Shown here piece after piece: positions 49,897-59,219 of a DNA stretch of 64,000 nucleotides. The notes under the pieces were generated by a model. It ran no database searches and was not told the origin of the DNA. It saw only the letters and a list, made by a program, of their open reading frames with translations. The number at the start of each line of letters is the position of its first letter. Position 1 is the stretch's first letter. This DNA comes from Clostridiales bacterium (GTDB lineage Bacteria > Bacillota > Clostridia > Oscillospirales > Oscillospiraceae): NCBI GenBank assembly GCA_029265405.1, contig JAJUJI010000001.1, forward strand, positions 1 through 64,000, read 5' to 3'. A program made the translations under genes and the position numbers.

Positions 49897-49972
49897 GCTG
49901 GTGTAGCTCAGTCGGTAGAGCAGCTGATTTGTAATCAGCAGGTCGGGGGTTCGAGTCCGTCCACCAGCTCCA
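49897..49972 (+). tRNA. tRNA-Thr (UGU)
   Basis: A 76-base tRNA including an encoded CCA. The acceptor stem is GCTGGTG / CACCAGC, the D-loop AGCTCAGTCGGTAGAGCA is canonical, the anticodon loop TTTGTAA gives anticodon TGT, and the T-arm has GGTTCGAGTCC. Confidence 0.97.
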
Positions 49973-49984
49973 ACAATGAAATAT

Positions 49985-50069
49985 GGGGGAATTCCCGAGT
50001 GGCCAAAGGGGACAGACTGTAAATCTGCTGGCAGTGCCTACGGTGGTTCGAATCCACCTTCCCCCACCA
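49985..50069 (+). tRNA. tRNA-Tyr (GUA)
   Basis: An 85-base class II tRNA with encoded CCA and a long variable arm. The acceptor stem is GGGGGAA / TTCCCCC, the anticodon loop CTGTAAA gives GTA, and the T-arm has GGTTCGAATCC. It lies 12 bases after tRNA-Thr and is cotranscribed. Confidence 0.97.
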
Positions 50070-51038: not shown

Positions 51039-51449
51039 CTACGCCGGCCCCATCTCGGCCAGACGGGCGCGCAGCTCTTTTATTTTGCTTTCAATCAGCG
51101 CTATCGTGCGCCGGAGCTCGTCTTCGCCTTTTCCAGTGGGATCCTCCAGACCCCAATCCTCGCGCATTTTGCAGGGCAGATACGGACATTCCACGTTGCA
51201 GCCCATAGTCACCGCCACGTCTATCGGCGGCAGCTCCTTAATCAGCTTCGGACGCTGGCTAAGCTCCATGTCCAGTCCGTAAAGCTCCTTCATAAGCCGG
51301 ACGGCGCCGGGCTCTATGCGCTCCTTCAGCTCGGTTCCGGCTGAAAAGCTTTCAAAGACATCTGAGGCAAGGAGCTTGCCCAGCGCCTCGGCAATCTGGC
51401 TCCGGCAGGAGTTGTGCACGCAGATGAAGGCCACCTTCGGTTTATCCAT
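51039..51449 (-). CDS. arsC: arsenate reductase, thioredoxin-coupled (LMW-PTP fold)
   Basis: A 136-residue ArsC of the low-molecular-weight phosphatase fold. The nucleophile loop CVHNSCR (C10-R16, CX5R) binds arsenate. The downstream relay cysteines lie in GCNVECPYLPC (about 84-93), where the thioredoxin-coupled enzymes form the shuttle disulfide. It reduces arsenate to arsenite for export by Acr3, with which it overlaps by 8 bases. The thioredoxins encoded upstream in the same operon are natural electron donors. Last gene of the operon. Confidence 0.93.
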   Translation of the reverse strand: MDKPKVAFICVHNSCRSQIAEALGKLLASDVFESFSAGTELKERIEPGAVRLMKELYGLDMELSQRPKLIKELPPIDVAVTMGCNVECPYLPCKMREDWGLEDPTGKGEDELRRTIALIESKIKELRARLAEMGPA

Positions 51450-52491
51450 CTCTGAACCATCCCTTCGTATTGTTTGCGATCCTGACAAGGATAAGCATTA
51501 TCGGCACCTCGGTCAGCACCCCGACTATGGTCGCCAGCGCCGCCGGCGACTTGGTTCCGAAAAGCGATATCGCCACCGCGACGGCCAGCTCGAAGAAGTT
51601 GGAAGCGCCTATCATGCCGGCGGGGGCGGCTATACTGTGAGGAAGCCTCAGGGCCCTGCTCGCCAGGTACGCTATGAAAAATATCAGAAAGGTTTGAATG
51701 GTCAGCGGAATCGCAATAAGGACGATGTGCAGGGGATTTTCTATTATAACCCGCCCCTGGAAGGAGAAAATGATCACCAAGGTCAGCAGCAGGCCCGCAA
51801 TTGTCGCGTTGCCGAACTTCGGTATAAATGTTTTTTCAAAGTATTCCAGCCCGTGCTTTTTTACAACCGCGCTTCTTGTGAGCACCCCTCCGGCCAGGGG
51901 GATGACAACAAACAGCGCCACCGACAGCAGCAGCGTATCCCACGGTATGGAGACTCCGCCGACGCCGAGCAAAAAAGCCACGATGGGCGTAAAAGCCACA
52001 AGGATTATCAGGTCGTTGGTGGCCACCTGTACAACCGTATAGGCCGGGTTTCCGTTGGTCAGATGGCTCCACACGAAAACCATGGCGGTGCAGGGGGCGG
52101 CGCCAAGCAATATCGCTCCGGCAAGGTAGTCCTTTGCCAATCCGGCGGGAATCCAGGCCTTGAAAATCACATTGAAAAATAGCCAGGCTATGCCGAACAT
52201 CGTAAAAGGCTTAATCAGCCAGTTGGCTACCCATGTAACAAAAAGCCCCTTGGGATTTTTCCCTACGTTCTTCACGCTCTGAAAATCCACCTTCAGCATC
52301 ATGGGGTATATCATTAGCCAGATAAGTATCGCTATCGGTATGGAAACGTTGGCGTATTCAAAGCGTCCCAGAAAGCTGGGCACGCCCGGCAAATACCTGC
52401 CTATCAATATTCCCGCCGCCATGCACAGGATGACCCATACCGTAAGATATTTCTCAAAAAAACCTATTCCGTTTTTTTTACCCTTTTCCAT
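51442..52491 (-). CDS. acr3: ACR3-family arsenite efflux transporter
   Basis: A 349-residue polytopic membrane protein with about ten helices. The conserved transport cysteine region LLGAAPCTAMVFVWSHLTNGN (mid-protein, about 140-160) and NDLIILVAFTPIVAFLLG are Acr3 hallmarks. It expels arsenite from the cytosol. The ATG at 52491 has GGAGTG upstream. A 113-base gap with a long hairpin separates it from the upstream thioredoxin gene. Confidence 0.95.
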   Translation of the reverse strand: MEKGKKNGIGFFEKYLTVWVILCMAAGILIGRYLPGVPSFLGRFEYANVSIPIAILIWLMIYPMMLKVDFQSVKNVGKNPKGLFVTWVANWLIKPFTMFGIAWLFFNVIFKAWIPAGLAKDYLAGAILLGAAPCTAMVFVWSHLTNGNPAYTVVQVATNDLIILVAFTPIVAFLLGVGGVSIPWDTLLLSVALFVVIPLAGGVLTRSAVVKKHGLEYFEKTFIPKFGNATIAGLLLTLVIIFSFQGRVIIENPLHIVLIAIPLTIQTFLIFFIAYLASRALRLPHSIAAPAGMIGASNFFELAVAVAISLFGTKSPAALATIVGVLTEVPIMLILVRIANNTKGWFRDG

Positions 52492-52552
52492 TGCACGCAC
52501 TCCGTTTATCAAACAAATTTGGCACGCCAAAGCTTAAGCTTCCCATACTTGG

Positions 52553-52595
52553 CAAGGAGTCCCGGCGCATAACGCGGCCGCGCCGGGTCTCCTTG
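52553..52595 (-). repeat. long hairpin between the second thioredoxin gene and acr3
   Basis: CAAGGAG-T-CCCGGCGC (52553-52568) pairs with GCGCCGGG-T-CTCCTTG (52580-52595) with a single internal mismatch and an 11-base loop. No T-tract follows leftward. It sits between two genes of one operon, so an RNA-processing or expression-balancing role is plausible. Confidence 0.75.
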
Positions 52596-52604
52596 TCTCC
52601 AGAT

Positions 52605-52952
52605 TTATCTGACTTTTTGCAAAATTTTGACAACTTCCTCTGTTTTGAGTACCTTGCCGTAGGAAACCACCTTGCCGTCTACGACAAGAGCGGGCGTTGT
52701 CATAACTCCGTAGGCGGCTATCTGCGCAAAATCCGTGACATGGTCGATGCTGTCGTCCATGCCGAGCTGCCTAAGCGCGGCTTTAGCGGCTTCTTCAAGC
52801 TGGTTGCACTTGGCGCAGCCGCTGCCGAGGATCTTTACCGACGCGCCGCCGGCCTTAGCCTTTTCCGCCTCGGCCATGCTCTCTGCGTCGCAAGAGCCGC
52901 AGCAGCAAGCCTCCTTGCTCTCATTTTTATTCTTTTTCCCGAATAAAGCCAT
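52605..52952 (-). CDS. small thioredoxin-like redox-active disulfide protein
   Basis: A 115-residue cytosolic protein. A cysteine-rich N-terminus (C16, C17, C18, C21 in EACCCGSCDAES) precedes a thioredoxin-like fold with active site GCAKC (C46-x2-C49) and the cis-proline TTPALVVDGKVV. It belongs to the redox-active disulfide protein 2 family often found in arsenic and CcdA operons. It could reduce ArsC or feed electrons to CcdA. The N-terminal cysteine cluster might also bind arsenite (inference). Confidence 0.85.
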   Translation of the reverse strand: MALFGKKNKNESKEACCCGSCDAESMAEAEKAKAGGASVKILGSGCAKCNQLEEAAKAALRQLGMDDSIDHVTDFAQIAAYGVMTTPALVVDGKVVSYGKVLKTEEVVKILQKVR

Positions 52953-52970
52953 AATCCTGTCCTTCCTTTC

Positions 52971-53660
52971 TTAAAATCCTTGATACAGCATATAAAAGCC
53001 CAGCAGCAGTATGAGCGCTCCCAATACTATCTTTATTATGCCGCTTGCCCTGCCGTACTTTTCGCTCGACGACAGCTTTTGCGCAAATCCGACGGAGGTT
53101 CCGGCTGCAACGGCAAGCAGCCCGTGGCCCAGCGAATAAAGCAGCAGCAGAAGCGCGCCCCACAGAACGCTTCCCCTGCCGGCGACCATGGCAAGCAGCG
53201 CAATCAGAACCGGCGTCGAGCAGGGCGAGGAGAAGACCCCTCCCAGTACGCCCGCTATAAAGGCTCCTATATATCCCCTTTTTTTGTTCCTGGAAACAAG
53301 GTAGCTGGAGGGTATTATTTCAAGCACGCCCCAGGTTTGCAGGGCCATCAGCACCATCAACCCCCCCAGCGCTATATACCACCAGGAGGCCGCTCCGCCT
53401 ATCAGCCTGCCAACTAGAGAGGCGGCCAAGCCCAGAGCGGTATAGGTGGCGGCGGCTCCCAGCGCAAAAACGACCGACAGCCGGAAGGCGGTTTTGGTTT
53501 CATAACGGCCAGCTCCTCCTACACAGGCAATTACCAGAGGTATGCCGGAAAGCGAGCAGGGGGTAAAGGAGGTCAAAATCCCGGCCGCCAGCGCCAGCAG
53601 CGGAGCAAGCCAGGCGCTGCTTTTTATCAGTTCCGATAGCCTCTCCAACAGTGCGTTCAC
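52971..53660 (-). CDS. ccdA: CcdA/DsbD-type transmembrane thiol electron carrier
   Basis: A 229-residue six-helix membrane protein. The two family cysteines are present: C35 in TSFTPCSLSG and C147 in FSSPCSTPV, each after a proline. CcdA passes reducing equivalents from a cytosolic thioredoxin to an extracytoplasmic thiol protein. Here both partners are encoded next to it. GTG start in a GTGA overlap with the upstream membrane-anchored thioredoxin gene. Confidence 0.92.
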   Translation of the reverse strand: MNALLERLSELIKSSAWLAPLLALAAGILTSFTPCSLSGIPLVIACVGGAGRYETKTAFRLSVVFALGAAATYTALGLAASLVGRLIGGAASWWYIALGGLMVLMALQTWGVLEIIPSSYLVSRNKKRGYIGAFIAGVLGGVFSSPCSTPVLIALLAMVAGRGSVLWGALLLLLYSLGHGLLAVAAGTSVGFAQKLSSSEKYGRASGIIKIVLGALILLLGFYMLYQGF

Positions 53661-54157
53661 TCGGCAACCCCCATGTCGGCCAAAATAGCGTCCATCTGGG
53701 AGTCCGTCAGGGCGCCCTGGTGCATTGTGAAGAGATGTTCTCCGGTAGTTTTGCTGCCGTACCTTATAAACTCAATGCCAAGCTCCTTACTAAATTCTTC
53801 GCTTGGAGAATAAGGAGTCCCGTCGGCATTTATGAAAAGCTGCGTCGGTATAAGCTGCAGCGGAAAGCCTTCGGCCGCCTCGGGATGCTTCCATACGTCA
53901 ACGAACCTGATTATAGCCTTTCCCTTCGTTTCCTTGTAGGCTCTTTCAAGCACAGGAGCCATTTTTTTGCACGGAACGCAGGAATCGGAGCCGAAGTCTA
54001 TTACTATCGGCAGGCCGCTGGCTTTCAGCTTCTCCAGATCGACGGACTCAGCTTCAAGCCCAGATCCGCCGCCGTTGTTCTTGATGGCCCATATCCCAAT
54101 GCCGGCTATGGCGACGCACAACAAGATAAATATTTTTAATAATCCCTTATTGCTCAT
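53657..54157 (-). CDS. membrane-anchored extracytoplasmic thioredoxin
   Basis: A 166-residue protein with an N-terminal membrane anchor (about 5-24) and a thioredoxin domain with active site GSDSCVPCKKM (C60-x2-C63) and cis-proline IPTQLF. It lies outside the membrane by topology and would receive electrons from CcdA. The start overlaps the ferredoxin-fusion gene by 4 bases (ATGA). Confidence 0.88.
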   Translation of the reverse strand: MSNKGLLKIFILLCVAIAGIGIWAIKNNGGGSGLEAESVDLEKLKASGLPIVIDFGSDSCVPCKKMAPVLERAYKETKGKAIIRFVDVWKHPEAAEGFPLQLIPTQLFINADGTPYSPSEEFSKELGIEFIRYGSKTTGEHLFTMHQGALTDSQMDAILADMGVAE

Positions 54158-54936
54158 CCGCAGCAGCTTCCCTCTCCGCAGCGGCCCGGCTTAGCGTTTT
54201 GGCCTTCAAAAAACCGTTTCAAATTATCCGGCAGGACAAAGCCGCATGCGCAAACCTCTTCCTTATCGCCGAAAACGGCCCGCAGCAGCCCCTCCGCAAG
54301 AAGCTCCTTCGGCGGCGACTCATAGCTTTCGCCCTCATGCTCAAACACGCGGCAATTCACCTCGGCTCCGCTTATTTCGCTGCAGCAGCCGCATGTGCTC
54401 TCCCTCACCTGACCGCAAATGTCGCGGCCGTTGACCCGAACGGTCGGGGAGGAGAATAACCTGTACTTTTCCGCAAGCTCAGGAGAGTCTATTTTAATCT
54501 TTTTGTATTCAACCTCAAAGCCGGCCATTTCAAGCGCCGGAGAGACGACCGACATAACCTCGTCAAGCGCGGCGGCGGTTTCGATACAGCGCTGGCAGGC
54601 TTCCAAATCAAGATAAAGATATTCCACAAGAGCCCGTTTTGACGGCGGTTTGTCTTCTCCGCAGTCGGCTCCGCAGCCGCAGGAGCAGACGGCATCCGCC
54701 GCTTCAGGCCTTCCGTTGGGCGGCGTCCAGCCCGTGTCCTCTCCCACATAGGTTATCGCTCCCACGGGACAGCGGTTCCCGCAGCCGTGGCAGTGGTCCA
54801 CGCACTTTTCTGGCTTGATTACCACCGGGGTCGGGGCCTTGGCGGTATCGTACACCCCGTGCGGGCACTTGGCGACGCAAGTTCCGCATTCCACGCAAAT
54901 TGAATAGTCTACAACCGGATACCAGGTTTTTGCCAT
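54154..54936 (-). CDS. 2[4Fe-4S] ferredoxin fused to a DUF2703 domain
   Basis: A 260-residue fusion. The ferredoxin part has two cluster motifs: C14-x2-C17-x2-C20-x3-C24-P and C45-x3-C49-x2-C52-x3-C56-P. A cysteine-rich bridge (CSCGCGADCG, about 84-93) leads to the DUF2703 domain: LDLEACQRCIETAAAL with CxxC, SSPTVRVNGRDIC and a later STCGCCSE, a thioredoxin-like arrangement. The tail ends GRCGEGSCCG. It may carry electrons from ferredoxin to thiols or metalloid substrates; the function is not known for this family. Located between the permease and thioredoxin genes. Confidence 0.85.
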   Translation of the reverse strand: MAKTWYPVVDYSICVECGTCVAKCPHGVYDTAKAPTPVVIKPEKCVDHCHGCGNRCPVGAITYVGEDTGWTPPNGRPEAADAVCSCGCGADCGEDKPPSKRALVEYLYLDLEACQRCIETAAALDEVMSVVSPALEMAGFEVEYKKIKIDSPELAEKYRLFSSPTVRVNGRDICGQVRESTCGCCSEISGAEVNCRVFEHEGESYESPPKELLAEGLLRAVFGDKEEVCACGFVLPDNLKRFFEGQNAKPGRCGEGSCCG

Positions 54937-54948
54937 GTCAATATCCTC

Positions 54949-55953
54949 CTATATTATCAAAGGCTGAATCGCGTTAAACAGATAGCCTATGGCTATTATT
55001 CCTATTGCGCATATGGCTACGAACAGGGCCAGCAGCTTGGGTTTTATAGCCTTTCGCAGCATTATCATGGACGGCAGCGACAGCGTCGTAACGGCCATCA
55101 TGAAGGATAGTATTACGCCGAGCTGCGCACCCTTGTACCACAGGGCCTCCGCAACGGGGATCGTACCGAATATATCGGCGTACATGGGAATCCCTACTAC
55201 TGTGGCTATAATCACGCCGAAAGGATTCCTCTCGCCCAGAGCCTTCATTACCCAGTCCTTCGGTATCGCGTTGTGGATAACGGCCCCTATGCCCACGCCT
55301 ATGAGAATATACGGAAACACCTTTTTAAATGTCGTCCTCATCTGCTCGTAAGCATAAGCAAGCCTGTCTCTTACCGCCAGTTCCGGCGCATCAATATCTG
55401 CCCCGGCGGCATTCAGTATAAAGCTTTCCACATATCTTCCCATGCGCAGCTTTTCAATCAGCGTCCCTCCTATTACGGCAATTATAAGCCCCACCGCGAC
55501 GTAAATCAGGGCAACCTTAGCGCCGAATATGCTCATCAGAAGTATAAGGGAGCCAAGGTCAACCATAGGCGACGAGATCAAAAATGAAAAGGTGACTCCC
55601 ACAGGCAGGCCGGCCGACGTAAAGCCTATAAACAGAGGTATCGACGAGCAGGAGCAAAAGGGCGTCACCGTGCCCAGCAGCGCCGCGACGCAATTGGCTC
55701 CGAGGCCGTGAAAGCGGCCCAGTATTTTTTTGCTGCGTTCCGGAGGAAAGTAGCTCTGGATATATGAAATGATAAAGATTAAAAAGCACAGCAGTATAGT
55801 TATTTTTATTACGTCGTAAACAAAAAAGTGTACGCCCCCCCAAATTCTTGTCGTTACGTCAAGCCCCAAGGCGCCCAGAGCTGCGCCGATCAGCTCGCTC
55901 AGCCACTTCATTCCCAATATTTGATATTGTATAAAATCCCATACTATTGACAC
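54949..55953 (-). CDS. UPF0718/ArsP-like permease
   Basis: A 334-residue membrane protein with about eight helices, of the DUF318/UPF0718 permease family that includes ArsP, the exporter of trivalent organoarsenicals. The conserved TPFCSCSSIPLFIGF (about 90-104) and SFLISSPMVDLGSLILL follow. GTG at 55953 is the likely start (AAAGGA about 10 bases upstream), overlapping the arsR stop by 10 bases. The substrate is inferred from the arsR/acr3 context. Confidence 0.85.
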   Translation of the reverse strand: MSIVWDFIQYQILGMKWLSELIGAALGALGLDVTTRIWGGVHFFVYDVIKITILLCFLIFIISYIQSYFPPERSKKILGRFHGLGANCVAALLGTVTPFCSCSSIPLFIGFTSAGLPVGVTFSFLISSPMVDLGSLILLMSIFGAKVALIYVAVGLIIAVIGGTLIEKLRMGRYVESFILNAAGADIDAPELAVRDRLAYAYEQMRTTFKKVFPYILIGVGIGAVIHNAIPKDWVMKALGERNPFGVIIATVVGIPMYADIFGTIPVAEALWYKGAQLGVILSFMMAVTTLSLPSMIMLRKAIKPKLLALFVAICAIGIIAIGYLFNAIQPLII

Positions 55954-56240
55954 AAGCCTACGTCCTTTCCGCAGCATTCAAGACCGCTTATAAAATTAAT
56001 AAACGCAGCCAGAGTATCGCAATTGAGGGTATAGTGATTCCACTTGCCCTCCTTGCGCACTTCAACAAGGCCGCACTCGCATAGTATCCGCATGTGGTGC
56101 GACAGCGTCGGCTGCGTAATGACAAATTTCTCCAGCAGCTTGCAGGCGCATTTTTCGCCTTCGGAAAGCATTTGAACGATTTGCAGCCTGTTGGAGTCGC
56201 CCATCGCCCGGCATATAAGGGCGACATCAATCGAATTCAT
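55944..56240 (-). CDS. arsR: ArsR-family metalloregulatory repressor
   Basis: A 98-residue winged-helix repressor. Cysteines C31 and C33 in EKCACKLL occupy the alpha-3 arsenite site of classic ArsR; a second possible site is formed by C89, C90 and C97 in the tail (ECCGKDVGLC). The recognition helix segment is ITQPTLSHHMRIL. It should repress the operon until arsenite or a related thiophile binds. First gene of the operon; the operator candidates are at 56257-56315. Confidence 0.93.
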   Translation of the reverse strand: MNSIDVALICRAMGDSNRLQIVQMLSEGEKCACKLLEKFVITQPTLSHHMRILCECGLVEVRKEGKWNHYTLNCDTLAAFINFISGLECCGKDVGLCQ

Positions 56241-56256
56241 TTAAACACTCCCCGCA

Positions 56257-56315
56257 ACATATAGATTATTGTCTATGTGTAAACTATAACGGACGAATAG
56301 ATAATTGTCAATATG
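56257..56315. promoter_or_regulatory. tandem ArsR operator candidates
   Basis: Two direct copies, ATAGATTATTGTCTATGTG (56261-56279) and ATAGATAATTGTCAATATG (56297-56315), match at 16 of 19 positions and are 36 bp apart. The first also forms an inverted repeat ACATATAGA / TCTATGTGT (56257-56265 / 56272-56280). One copy covers the -35, the other the transcript start of the ars promoter. Confidence 0.7.
56283..56311 (-). promoter_or_regulatory. promoter of the arsenic operon
   Basis: Minus strand perfect TTGACA (56311-56306), 17-bp spacer, TATAGT (56288-56283). It is flanked and overlapped by the operator candidates. Confidence 0.85.
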
Positions 56316-56363: not shown

Positions 56364-56404
56364 AGACTAGTATAGTATTTGTTGATGGGATGGTTTATAA
56401 CAGC

Positions 56405-56653
56405 ATGAATATTACTGTCAAATACGGTGTGAGCGAGCTTATCAGGGGCCTGCGCGACGGGGACTGCGAGCTTCCGGACGGCTCCACGGTCGGGGAACTG
56501 ATAGAAAAATCCGCCTCCGACAGCGGAACGGAGCTGAGCGAGAGCGTGAAAAACAGCATCGTATTCCTTGTAAACGGCAAACCGGCGAAATGGGAAACCG
56601 TTTTGAGCGAGGGCGACAGCGTCCGGGTGCTGTACAAGATCATAGGCGGCTGA
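56405..56653 (+). CDS. MoaD/ThiS-like sulphur-carrier protein
   Basis: An 82-residue ubiquitin-fold protein ending in the diagnostic GG (YKIIGG), the site adenylated and thiocarboxylated by an E1-like enzyme. NITVKYGVSE start, DGSTVGELIEK near 24 and VFLVNGKPAKWETVLSEGD near 53 fit the MoaD family. Two in-frame ATGs exist (56390, 56405); the second gives the usual N-terminus. With the ThiF-like protein 3 bases downstream and an aldehyde oxidoreductase gene next, it probably supplies sulphur for the tungsten/molybdenum pterin. Confidence 0.85.
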   Translation: MNITVKYGVSELIRGLRDGDCELPDGSTVGELIEKSASDSGTELSESVKNSIVFLVNGKPAKWETVLSEGDSVRVLYKIIGG

Positions 56654-56656
56654 GCG

Positions 56657-57331
56657 ATGGATGCGCGCTATGAAAGAAACCACCCGGCCATAAGCCGCAG
56701 GGAGCAGGAAATTTTAGCCTCCAGCCGCGTCCTGGTCGCGGGCTGCGGAGGCTTAGGCTGCTATATTTTGGAATATCTCGGCCGCGTAGGAGTCGGCCAT
56801 CTTACTGCGGCCGACGGCGACGTTTTTACGGAATCAAACCTTAACCGGCAGCTTTATTCCAGCTCCGAAACTCTGGGGAAGCCGAAGCCTCTTGCCGCAG
56901 CCGAGCGGATGAAGCTGGTCAATCCGCTGGTGGCGGTACAGCCCGTCTGCGAATATATAACCGAGGCCAGCGCGGAAAGGCTGATTAGCGGGCACGATGT
57001 CGTCGTAGACGCTTTGGACAGCGGTTCGGCGCGCCTGATTCTGGCCGGGGCTGCGGGCGCCAGCGGCATCCCGGTCGTCAGCGGCGCCATATCCGGCTGG
57101 CGGGGCCGCGTATTCGTCCTTATGCCCGGGGAGAGCGCCGAGGCCCTGTGGGACGGCGGCGCGGGCCCCTCTGCCGGCAATCTTTGCTTTGCCGCTTCCG
57201 CCGCCGCGTCGGTTCAGGCCGCCGAAACGGTCAAGCTGCTGCTGAACAGGGGCGGCGTTTTGTCGGGGAGGATGCTGGAATTTGACCTGCTCAGCGGGCT
57301 CTGGGAAGAGCTTCCTCTCATACTGCAATAG
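56657..57331 (+). CDS. compact ThiF/MoeB/HesA E1-like adenylyltransferase
   Basis: A 224-residue E1-like enzyme. Nucleotide loop AGCGGLGCYI (28-37), DGDVFTESNLNRQ (53-65, with the conserved Asn and Arg/Gln) and the lysine in GKPKPL are intact; DVVVDALDS is near 114. The CxxC zinc pairs of MoeB/ThiF are missing and only four cysteines exist (30, 35, 98, 177), so it is shorter than canonical members (~245-270). It should activate the preceding MoaD-like protein. Confidence 0.88.
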   Translation: MDARYERNHPAISRREQEILASSRVLVAGCGGLGCYILEYLGRVGVGHLTAADGDVFTESNLNRQLYSSSETLGKPKPLAAAERMKLVNPLVAVQPVCEYITEASAERLISGHDVVVDALDSGSARLILAGAAGASGIPVVSGAISGWRGRVFVLMPGESAEALWDGGAGPSAGNLCFAASAAASVQAAETVKLLLNRGGVLSGRMLEFDLLSGLWEELPLILQ

Positions 57332-57365
57332 TGCAATCACATTACAACAACGAAAGGATGCTGCT

Positions 57366-59219
57366 ATGTTCGGGTACACAGGAAAGCTGCTTTTCGTCGA
57401 CCTGACGACTGGCAAGACCGAAATAAGAGAGCTGGACGAGGCCGCCGCGAAAAGCTTCATCGGCGGACCCTCCCTGGGAGCAAAAATACTGTATGAGGAA
57501 ATGCCGGCGCATGCCCACGCGTTCTCCGAAGAGAGCGTTATCGGCTTCGTGTCCGGCCCCACCAACGGAACCGGAGCCCTGATGGGAGGGCGGTATACCG
57601 TCGTATGCAAGTCGCCCGTTACCGGCGGCTGGAACGACGCAAACTCCGGCGGCAATTTTGGCCCCCAGATGAGAAGGGCCGGCTTCGACGGCATCTTCGT
57701 CAGGGGCATAAGCAAGAAGCCTGTCTATATCTTTGCCGACAGCGGCAAGGCCGAAATACGCGACGCCTCTAGGCTGTGGGGCAAAACCGTGTCCGAGGCC
57801 GAGCGGCTCATCAGAGAGGAGCTCAAGGACGACAGGGTTGGCATCGCGCTCATTGGCCCGGCGGGAGAAAACCTATCCAATATGGCCGCGGTGATGAACG
57901 ACACCCACAGGGCGGCCGCCAGAGGCGGACCCGGAGCGGTCATGGGCTCTAAAAGGCTCAAGGCCATAGCCGTTCGCGGAGACTTGAGAATAGAGCTCAA
58001 GGATAAGGACGGCCTTTTGGCTCTGAATAAGCAGGCGGTGGAGTGGGAAAAGGGTCCCGCTTCCATGTTCGTGAATATGTTTTCGGAGCTGGGAACGGGC
58101 GGCTTTTACGAATCCAGCGTGATGACCGGAGACGCTTCCATAAAAAATTGGGCCGGCGCTCCGCACGAGCTTACGGAGGAGCAGATAAAGCTCCTTACCT
58201 CGGCCGAAATGGACAAGCTGTATAAAAGAAAAAAGTTTGCATGCAGCGCCTGTCCCCTGGGCTGCGGAGCAATCTATGAAATAAAGAGCGGCAGGTGGCC
58301 CATAGGCGAAGGCTCAAGACCCGAGTACGAAACGCTTGGAGCCTTCGGCAGCATGCTGCTCAACGGCGACGCGGAGTCGGTCAACCGCTGCAACCAGCTA
58401 TGCAACGAATACGGCTTCGACAGCATATCCCTGGGCGCCACAGTGGCCTGGGCAATGGAGAACTACAACAACGGCGTCCTGACTAAGGCCGAGCTCGACG
58501 GCATTGAGCTGACCTGGGGCAACGCCGAGGCCATAGTGCGCCTTACCGAGCTCATATGCAAAAACGAGGGTATAGGCAAAATACTGAGCAGGGGCAGCCA
58601 AGGGGCCGCAAAAGCCCTGAATAAGGGCTATGAGGCTCTCGTTACAGCCGACGGCATAGAGATACCGCAACACGACCCGAGGTACGGTCCCGGACTTGCC
58701 CGGACCTATCAATACGACCCGACGCCCGGCCGCCACGTAAAGGGCGGGCTAGGCATTACGCACGGCAGCCAGCCGCCGGAAGCAAAGTATAATTATTCGG
58801 GGACGGGCGATAAGGATGTGGCCGGAGTGATTAACCAGGAGCTTATAAACGCCGCTGGCTACTGCTCCTTCGCCGAAATAGGCCTCCAGCCGCAGAGCAT
58901 GATAAAGTTCATCAACGCGATTACAGGCTTCGAGTACAGCGAGGAGGAATTCAAAAACGCCGGCCTGCGCTCCTTTGCCATACGCTGCGCCTTCAATATC
59001 CGCGAGGGCTTCCGGCGCGGGGCTCACAAGCTTTCAGACAGGATAGTAGGCAGGCCGCCTCTTAAGGACGGCCCTCTTGCGGGAATAACCGTCGACAACG
59101 AAAGGCTTGGAGACAATTTCTTCGAGGCGCTGGGATGGGACAAGGTCGAGGGCATCCCGACAGGGGAATGGCTTGAAAAAATAGGCGGTCTTGAAATGGT
59201 TATTAAGGATCTTGCGTAA
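57366..59219 (+). CDS. aor: aldehyde:ferredoxin oxidoreductase
   Basis: A 617-residue AOR-family enzyme, which oxidises aldehydes to acids (or reduces acids) using a bis-pterin tungsten site and ferredoxin. FGYTGKLLFVDLTTGKTE start; the bis-pterin motifs are in GGRYTVVCKSPVTGGWNDANSGG (about 77-99). The [4Fe-4S] ligands are in CSACPLGC (about 292-299), and a further Cys is in AAGYCSFAE (near 500). Normal length for tungsten AOR. ATG at 57366 with GAAAGG upstream, last gene of the MoaD-ThiF-AOR operon. Confidence 0.95.
   Translation: MFGYTGKLLFVDLTTGKTEIRELDEAAAKSFIGGPSLGAKILYEEMPAHAHAFSEESVIGFVSGPTNGTGALMGGRYTVVCKSPVTGGWNDANSGGNFGPQMRRAGFDGIFVRGISKKPVYIFADSGKAEIRDASRLWGKTVSEAERLIREELKDDRVGIALIGPAGENLSNMAAVMNDTHRAAARGGPGAVMGSKRLKAIAVRGDLRIELKDKDGLLALNKQAVEWEKGPASMFVNMFSELGTGGFYESSVMTGDASIKNWAGAPHELTEEQIKLLTSAEMDKLYKRKKFACSACPLGCGAIYEIKSGRWPIGEGSRPEYETLGAFGSMLLNGDAESVNRCNQLCNEYGFDSISLGATVAWAMENYNNGVLTKAELDGIELTWGNAEAIVRLTELICKNEGIGKILSRGSQGAAKALNKGYEALVTADGIEIPQHDPRYGPGLARTYQYDPTPGRHVKGGLGITHGSQPPEAKYNYSGTGDKDVAGVINQELINAAGYCSFAEIGLQPQSMIKFINAITGFEYSEEEFKNAGLRSFAIRCAFNIREGFRRGAHKLSDRIVGRPPLKDGPLAGITVDNERLGDNFFEALGWDKVEGIPTGEWLEKIGGLEMVIKDLA

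Follow-up and report, generated by a model that had tools for sequence, protein, structure and literature searches.

The window analysed here, a stretch of 64,000 nucleotides from contig JAJUJI010000001.1 of a Clostridiales bacterium (Oscillospiraceae), carries at positions 51039-56240 a putative arsenic resistance (ars) operon of eight minus-strand genes. According to the list of open reading frames (ORFs) and family searches, these are arsR, an ArsP_1 permease gene (arsP), a fusion of ferredoxin (Fd) and DUF2703 (Fd::DUF2703), TrxA, ccdA, RDP2, acr3 and arsC (Table 1). The genome comprises 2.48 Mb, is 98.8% complete and holds the operon on its contig C8. Judged by its recurrence in other genomes, this is a real, widespread and conserved operon, representing a ferredoxin-linked form of the already reported ars operons with CcdA, thioredoxin and RDP2. 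Its transmembrane part, TrxA-ccdA, is by the same comparison a genuine but optional cassette. The eight leftward genes named in the original prediction, an earlier reading of the window, are all in place and each matches the expected family. The product there called a second thioredoxin is indeed thioredoxin-like, its sharper identity being the MTH895/ArsE type (RDP2) with a Cys-rich N-terminal tail.

Table 1. Operon genes and control elements, with positions in the window and the basis of each assignment.
Feature	Position	Strand	Basis
Sigma-70-like promoter TTGACA-17-TATAGT, 11/12 matches	56283..56311	-	promoter scan
Operator candidate, inverted repeat ATAGA-N6-TCTAT just downstream of -10	56261..56276	-	read from sequence
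arsR, ArsR/SmtB repressor with CxC (C31, C33)	55944..56240	-	PF01022 (HTH_5) 59 bits; NF033788 86.6 bits, cut-off 55
ArsP_1 permease, CSC motif (C108, C110), start codon uncertain	54949..55977	-	PF03773 206 bits, cut-off 32.3
Ferredoxin (8 Cys, two 4Fe-4S type; 4Fe-4S dicluster)::DUF2703 (CxxC + Cys tail)	54154..54936	-	PF10865 108 bits, cut-off 23.6
TrxA, membrane-anchored thioredoxin (CVPC), predicted outward-facing	53657..54157	-	PF00085 42 bits; anchor by inspection
ccdA (DsbD_TM), C35 + C147	52971..53660	-	PF02683 86 bits
RDP2, MTH895/ArsE-family thioredoxin-like, Cys-rich N-terminal tail	52605..52952	-	TIGR00412 97.2 bits, cut-off 62; Thioredoxin_3
Hairpin of 16 pairs, strong, no T run, inside RDP2-acr3 gap	52553..52595	-	folding
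acr3, arsenite efflux permease, start ATG 52491	51442..52491	-	TIGR00832 389.2 bits, cut-off 282.8
arsC, LMW-PTP-fold arsenate reductase-like, start ATG 51449	51039..51449	-	PF01451 (LMWPc) 53 bits

The genes had been described as mostly overlapping or nearly touching, which applies to most junctions. In the ORF list, TrxA shares 4 nt with Fd::DUF2703 and another 4 nt with ccdA, acr3 and arsC share 8 nt, and spacers of 12 and 18 nt separate arsP from Fd and ccdA from RDP2, respectively; the size of the arsR/arsP junction hinges on the uncertain arsP start. It does not apply to RDP2 and acr3, which are 113 nt apart if ATG 52491 is taken as the acr3 start. The whole gap, hairpin included, folds at -43.8 kcal/mol (z -2.3), and thus acr3-arsC is not packed tightly with the other operon genes. 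The gap measures 42 nt or less in 28 of 33 relatives having the two genes adjacent. Wider junctions are found in L108 (65 nt), L161 (91 nt, where a separate strong hairpin is present), L167 (216 nt) and L142 (472 nt), and in L181 the two genes are fused. The hairpin recalls the one between arsC and arsD in Bacillus CDB3, which lowers expression of the full operon (PMC4562236).

One strong promoter ahead of arsR had been proposed, and this is borne out by the site listed in Table 1, although the scan over 8.5 kb gave 14 promoter-like sites versus 6.5 expected. A promoter-like site (at least 10/12 matches) precedes arsR in 66 of 68 operons, compared with 7.8% of shuffled sequences. Such a site was found before TrxA in none of 18 loci, so that no separate TrxA/ccdA promoter is visible at sequence level. 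Repeats resembling CATATCAAAT/TTTTGATATG occur at the place corresponding to the operator candidate in several relatives.

Nine Fd::DUF2703 fusions were aligned to scan named genomes, which yielded 148 pattern matches and 116 relatives. The best 80 loci were all examined, gene chains being read along the strand with gaps below 700 nt. The order arsR - arsP - Fd(::DUF2703) - [TrxA - ccdA] - RDP2 - [two half-permeases] - [acr3 - arsC], where brackets denote optional genes, recurs in dozens of genomes and is kept in the sample of the window's class as well. The permease lies immediately upstream of Fd in 74 of the 80 loci, Fd and DUF2703 are fused in 70, and RDP2 belongs to the chain in 69. All eight genes are present in seven loci (L104, L108, L119, L126, L127, L129, L137), in some with extra genes in between. 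TrxA and ccdA occur together in 24 loci, always immediately behind Fd or DUF2703; this single slot (24/24) speaks against a merely random adjacency of the redox genes. Carriers are mostly Clostridia, e.g. Marasmitruncus, Caproiciproducens, Oscillibacter ruminantium, Papillibacter, Sedimentibacter and Parasporobacterium, and a few are bins labelled Spirochaetales, Treponema, Fervidobacterium or Alphaproteobacteria. The half-permeases are two adjoining ArsP_1-like membrane proteins of half length (about 165 and 195 aa), seen in or near the operon in L119, L129, L165, L166, L169 and L192.

The full-length Fd::DUF2703 fusion was found in 9 of 245 genomes of the window's class, its own included. 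A DUF2703 match was obtained in 66 of 329 genomes of a phylum sample, and a loose ferredoxin-motif check of the matching ORFs of 30 phylum-sample loci (L002-L031) gave no second fusion. The fusion is missing from all 8 other class-sample genomes that belong to the window's order, which suggests that the operon was gained horizontally. No GC shift was seen at the operon, leaving a foreign origin unsupported by GC, and a plasmid collection yielded two distant DUF2703 matches, one distant ccdA match and no close copy. One of these 8 genomes (G546) has a tailed RDP2 relative.

The transmembrane relay had been predicted to be a complete part of the operon. As an obligatory element it does not hold up: 41 of the 80 loci possess RDP2 without TrxA-ccdA, seven have a ccdA stub without TrxA and eight are undecided (contig ends or no RDP2), so that 48 of the 72 loci of readable state lack an intact TrxA-ccdA. 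In the stub loci (L131, L132, L134, L135, L136, L138, L141), a 3' ccdA piece of 72-87 aa precedes an intact RDP2, and both cysteines are missing in the three stubs read; six of the seven loci hardly differ from one another and represent roughly one event. These stubs indicate that TrxA-ccdA was lost while the rest of the operon persisted. A tree of joined arsP, Fd and RDP2 sequences covered 75 operons, 6 of 81 rows having been dropped as they contain no full arsP. In this tree, in which a quarter to a third of the branches are weakly supported, the 72 rows of known state require at least 13 changes between presence and absence of TrxA-ccdA. In loci whose downstream stretch spans at least 5.5 kb, the cassette showed no association with arsC (9/18 with, 16/31 without; p = 1.0) and no significant one with acr3 (12/18 with, 15/31 without; p = 0.25). 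Likewise, no ArsP cysteine covaries with TrxA-ccdA (lowest p 0.20). The nearly identical stub operons of L131, L132, L134, L135, L136 and L138 lie in Oscillibacter, C. sporosphaeroides, Faecalispora and bins, and some of their common neighbours resemble, by inspection, genes of conjugative elements.

In the 245 class genomes, CcdA homologues divide into a close group of 21 above 160 bits, to which the window's CcdA belongs, and a distant group below 78 bits. Eight of the 21 close CcdAs (window, L066, L069, L070, L074, L187, L189, L198) adjoin acr3, arsC or a full ArsP_1 gene; a further one lies beside RDP2 only (L202) and another beside half-permeases only (L192). For comparison, 20 distant CcdAs, most of them high in the list, were fetched, plus the best-scoring distant match, G473. 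By the same measure none of the 20 lies beside acr3, arsC or full arsP; L204 has half-permeases nearby, and in L214 an ArsP_1 piece lies on the opposite strand at a distance of about 7 kb. Ars adjacency thus amounts to 8/21 for close versus 1/21 for distant CcdAs (p 0.02), or to 9/21 with the RDP2-only case (p 0.009). When the ars label is mapped onto a tree of 46 CcdAs, 5 changes suffice, compared with 13.6 in shuffles (0/500 as low), and one clade (support 98) consists of 27 ars rows, including the window, and one other (L188); many ars rows of this tree were found via an ars marker, and only the class rows are blind. Together with the conserved order and a promoter before arsR and none before TrxA, this placement of most ars-located CcdAs in one clade supports the redox genes as true members of the operon.

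When 751 ORFs neighbouring the operon in the 80 loci were clustered, no dedicated TrxA-CcdA partner emerged, no family occurring in more than 4 of the 24 cassette loci. An NAD(P)/FAD oxidoreductase-like family is found in 4/24 cassette loci (L142, L156, L175, L176), which group on the CcdA tree, and in 0/48 without the cassette; an AraC-like family shows the opposite pattern (0/24 versus 10/48). The former ORF, disulfide-oxidoreductase-like and up to 552 aa long, lies about 3.5 kb after Fd; it may be an alternative electron source and is perhaps akin to pno of the Fusibacter ars cluster. An F420 ligase-like gene was seen near a non-ars TrxA-ccdA pair in three genomes (L188, L193, L195).

In the ResA/StoA-CcdA and DsbD systems, thiol electrons are exported, CcdA feeding an anchored outer thioredoxin. 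Here the pair lies inside an ars operon, and its ccdA is the only DsbD_TM match in the genome. Cytochrome c maturation was considered as a role of CcdA and rejected, since no Cytochrom_C_asm match was obtained in the genome and this process thus does not account for CcdA.

Many cysteines of the encoded proteins are conserved to a high degree. This applies to C31 and C33 of ArsR (71/71 relatives), the CSC motif of ArsP (75/75), the eight ferredoxin cysteines (79-80/80), C114, C117, C182, C185 and C195 of DUF2703 (69/69), the CxxC motifs of TrxA (23/23) and RDP2 (71/71), C35 and C147 of CcdA (24/24), C134 of Acr3 (38/38) and C84 and C88 of ArsC (36/36). Varying cysteines include C64, C96 and C323 of ArsP and C93 of ArsC. 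An N-terminal RDP2 tail with at least 3 Cys, often CCCGGNCDAESM, is present in 69 of 70 operon relatives, and a C-terminal DUF2703 tail (at least 3 Cys in the last 18 residues), often CSCGGNCC, in 61 of 70; more distant RDP2s of the class mostly align only from about residue 30 onward. TrxA appears by inspection as a CxxC thioredoxin domain behind one N-terminal membrane anchor, its orientation being a prediction, and CcdA, with one Cys in each half, matches the solved CcdA structure 5vkv (E 2e-4). The anchor and the retention of both CcdA cysteines make an outward thiol relay plausible.

RDP2 matches the MtH895 structure 1ilo (7e-13), and the permease gave no match to solved structures. The permease also stays below cut-off for SaoE (NF040736, 99.7 bits, cut-off 325) and for SO_0444 Cu/Zn models, the DUF2703 protein is related to NF049942 below cut-off, and ArsC does not reach the models for pI258-type thioredoxin-dependent reductases (PRK13530, 70 of 215 bits; TIGR02691, 59.5 of 174 bits), its three catalytic-type Cys being conserved in relatives. 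A model of Fd::DUF2703 from a 50-row alignment reached pLDDT 82 and pTM 0.60, the placement of Fd relative to DUF2703 being unreliable. The DUF2703 part (pLDDT above 90) is, according to this model, a thioredoxin fold, thioredoxins leading its fold matches with middling Z scores of 7-8; ArsD is not among the matches listed, which excludes nothing. The genome furthermore encodes two thioredoxin-reductase-like proteins (329 and 291 bits, curated cut-off 343), which could feed cytoplasmic partners.

The redox components are also linked by fusions: besides Fd::DUF2703, DUF2703::RDP2 occurs in L071, and in L072 Fd is fused to C_GCAxxG_C_C (PF09719, 108 bits), which replaces DUF2703, as was also seen in L173. 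RDP2 and Acr3 share one 500-residue frame in L181, a Treponema bin. Long RDP2 ORFs in L148 and L167 were considered as fusions and discarded, looking by inspection like stop-to-stop artefacts.

Members of the families concerned are known to act as follows: ArsR is released from its promoter by its inducers, Acr3 exports As(III) and CcdA moves thiol electrons outward. On this basis we regard it as probable that the operon serves the export of arsenicals under the control of ArsR, together with ferredoxin-linked thiol proteins in the cytoplasm and an accessory TrxA-CcdA cassette by which outer thiols are kept reduced. Arsenicals would relieve the repression by ArsR; ArsC would generate As(III) for export by Acr3, and the ArsP_1 permease would export a second species, probably trivalent and thiol-reactive. 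The ferredoxin domain would pass low-potential electrons to DUF2703 and RDP2 and thus keep cytoplasmic thiols reduced, the Cys tails of both proteins probably binding a trivalent metalloid. If present, CcdA would transfer electrons from a cytoplasmic thioredoxin-like protein to the anchored outer TrxA, which may re-reduce thiols of membrane or exported proteins stressed by the exported arsenic. TrxA-CcdA would thereby be an accessory cassette rather than a needed link of the chain. If true, the arsenic resistance of strict anaerobes would have a direct link to both the ferredoxin pool and the extracytoplasmic thiol state. The sister operons, some with TrxA-ccdA, some lacking it and some with a decayed copy, offer a natural comparison for the role of the outer thioredoxin.

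Several observations weigh against this reading. We infer the direction of electron flow and the topology from family knowledge only, and the RDP2::Acr3 fusion is a single case from a metagenome bin. Three of 30 ars-located CcdAs (L074, L198, L202) fall outside the ars clade. Moreover, the distant CcdA of G473 (L080) shares an ars locus with arsP, arsR, Fd and RDP2, and a distant ccdA from another class of the phylum (L096) also adjoins ars genes, showing that the ars link is not restricted to the close CcdA group. In addition, for 11 of the 21 close CcdAs the fetched stretch contains no ars gene of those searched for, several stretches ending early at contig ends, so that the pair may have a general role. 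Twenty proteins beside non-ars pairs were searched, one of them from L072; apart from the recurring F420 ligase they show no common theme, others being MatE, LysR, methyltransferase and kinase proteins. Carried further, the pairs without ars neighbours would make TrxA-ccdA a general housekeeping pair that just travels in the ars operon, which would fit the frequent gain or loss of the cassette, too. Its identical slot in every cassette locus, the almost wholly ars-located CcdA clade and the lack of another DsbD_TM protein in the genome argue against this, and we consider it quite unlikely.

Alternatively it might be that pentavalent organoarsenicals are the substrates. According to the original prediction, the trivalent organoarsenicals exported by the ArsP permease would arise from pentavalent ones through the action of the outer TrxA (via CcdA) or of the ferredoxin/DUF2703 chain. 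The ArsP_1 permease and Fd are indeed constant operon members, and NCBIfam places RDP2 in a family named MTH895/ArsE, recalling, by name only, the ArsEFG organoarsenical system, which Chen and colleagues reportedly described in 2019 and which is said to detoxify roxarsone and nitarsone. Family searches of the eight genes, however, gave no domain specific for organoarsenical reduction, the permease-Fd-RDP2 core often does without TrxA-ccdA, and the ArsP cysteines vary independently of the cassette. Reduction outside the cell would furthermore create the more toxic form there, and with the permease below every substrate-specific curated cut-off it is left unsupported. This explanation seems unlikely to us. 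Even less can be said for a reductase system of Trx, RDP2 and CcdA serving the cytoplasmic ArsC, the view of Castillo & Saier (2010), whose survey has arsC in 7 of 8 such operons: the predicted outside location of the anchored TrxA does not fit, and arsC is no more frequent downstream of the cassette than without it. The thioredoxin service to ArsC assumed in the original prediction likewise finds no backing in these counts, and we regard this explanation as highly improbable, although RDP2 could serve ArsC despite the evidence on TrxA.

An extension of the preferred reading, in which the operon probably couples export to ferredoxin-linked thiol proteins, would be an electron and metalloid relay replacing ArsD-ArsA. 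Thereby, ferredoxin would reduce DUF2703 and RDP2, their conserved tails (CCCGGNC, CSCGGNCC) would capture trivalent arsenicals and pass them directly to the CSC site of ArsP and to Acr3, and CcdA-TrxA would keep the release side reduced. The basis is the likeness of the Cys tails to ArsD pairs and the clan relation: ArsD of E. coli has a metallochaperone site of Cys12/13/18 and C-terminal vicinal pairs (PMC4562236), and ArsD and DUF2703 belong to a thioredoxin-like clan, in which the RDP2-family protein MtH895 is the best structural match for each of them and DUF2703-ArsD fusions are reported (PMC3091736). This shared clan makes a chaperone function slightly likelier and is no proof of binding; we consider the relay possible but doubtful.

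Parts of the operon have been described before. Castillo & Saier (2010) described ars operons that contain CcdA, thioredoxin and RDP2, in most cases along with arsC, noted ArsP homologues in ars operons, too, and considered transmembrane electron flow less likely. The window's operon is of that kind, with the same three redox families beside ars genes, and has in addition ferredoxin, DUF2703 and a fixed gene order; in the sections of that survey considered here, ferredoxin and a fixed order are not described and DUF2703 does not appear. Similarly, the accessible text on the arsC-1 region of Fusibacter sp. 3D3 (PMC9751042) describes neither the fusion nor CcdA nor the permease order and does not contain the word ccdA. 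In Rhodococcus aetherivorans BCP1, a DUF2703 gene bearing CxxC lies beside arsR-acr3-arsC and is induced by As(V); in contrast to the ferredoxin-fused form of the window it stands alone, on its own transcript with arsO, and the available part of the paper describes no ferredoxin or CcdA (PMC6514093). The consulted part of PMC3091736 deals with the kinship of ArsD and DUF2703, and operon, ferredoxin and CcdA are not considered there; ferredoxin is mentioned in neither of these two papers, the only ones in the open-access literature searched that name DUF2703. For the Fd::DUF2703 fusion, the Cys tails, the behaviour of the cassette and the gene order, no description was found in the open-access literature searched.

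Outside these papers, a further system with an ArsP_1-type permease is SAO (Sec-assisted organometallic), said to go back to Haft and Gwadz in 2023. Its likeness to the operon consists in thioredoxin-like, Cys/Sec-rich partners and in SaoE, an ArsP_1-type efflux protein whose model weakly matches the permease (seen via PMC13188914). In contrast to SAO, the window's eight genes include no ABC transporter, MerB-like lyase or selenoprotein, and the SaoE match stays below cut-off. Selenocysteine forms are reported for SO_0444-type permeases (UxC motif), PF13192, PF09719 and NF049942 (PMC13188914).

The genome contains ArsP_1 relatives elsewhere, too. A half-length pair lies at about 67.3-68.2 kb of G000:C6; a TGA reported within the match led to selenocysteine being considered here, which was rejected, the open frame of 179 residues having no CxC motif. 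A second full ArsP_1 permease with a CACS motif (L224, G000:C5:108785-109642) is located, by inspection, beside a MarR-like regulator. Divergent from arsR, at 56390-59219 on the plus strand, reading of the sequence points to a MoaD/ThiS-like small protein, a ThiF/MoeB-like protein and an ORF resembling tungsten-type aldehyde:ferredoxin oxidoreductase. On the other side, about 1 kb past the operon end, genes for tRNA-Thr and tRNA-Tyr are situated at 49897-50069 (plus strand), a possible insertion spot for mobile DNA.

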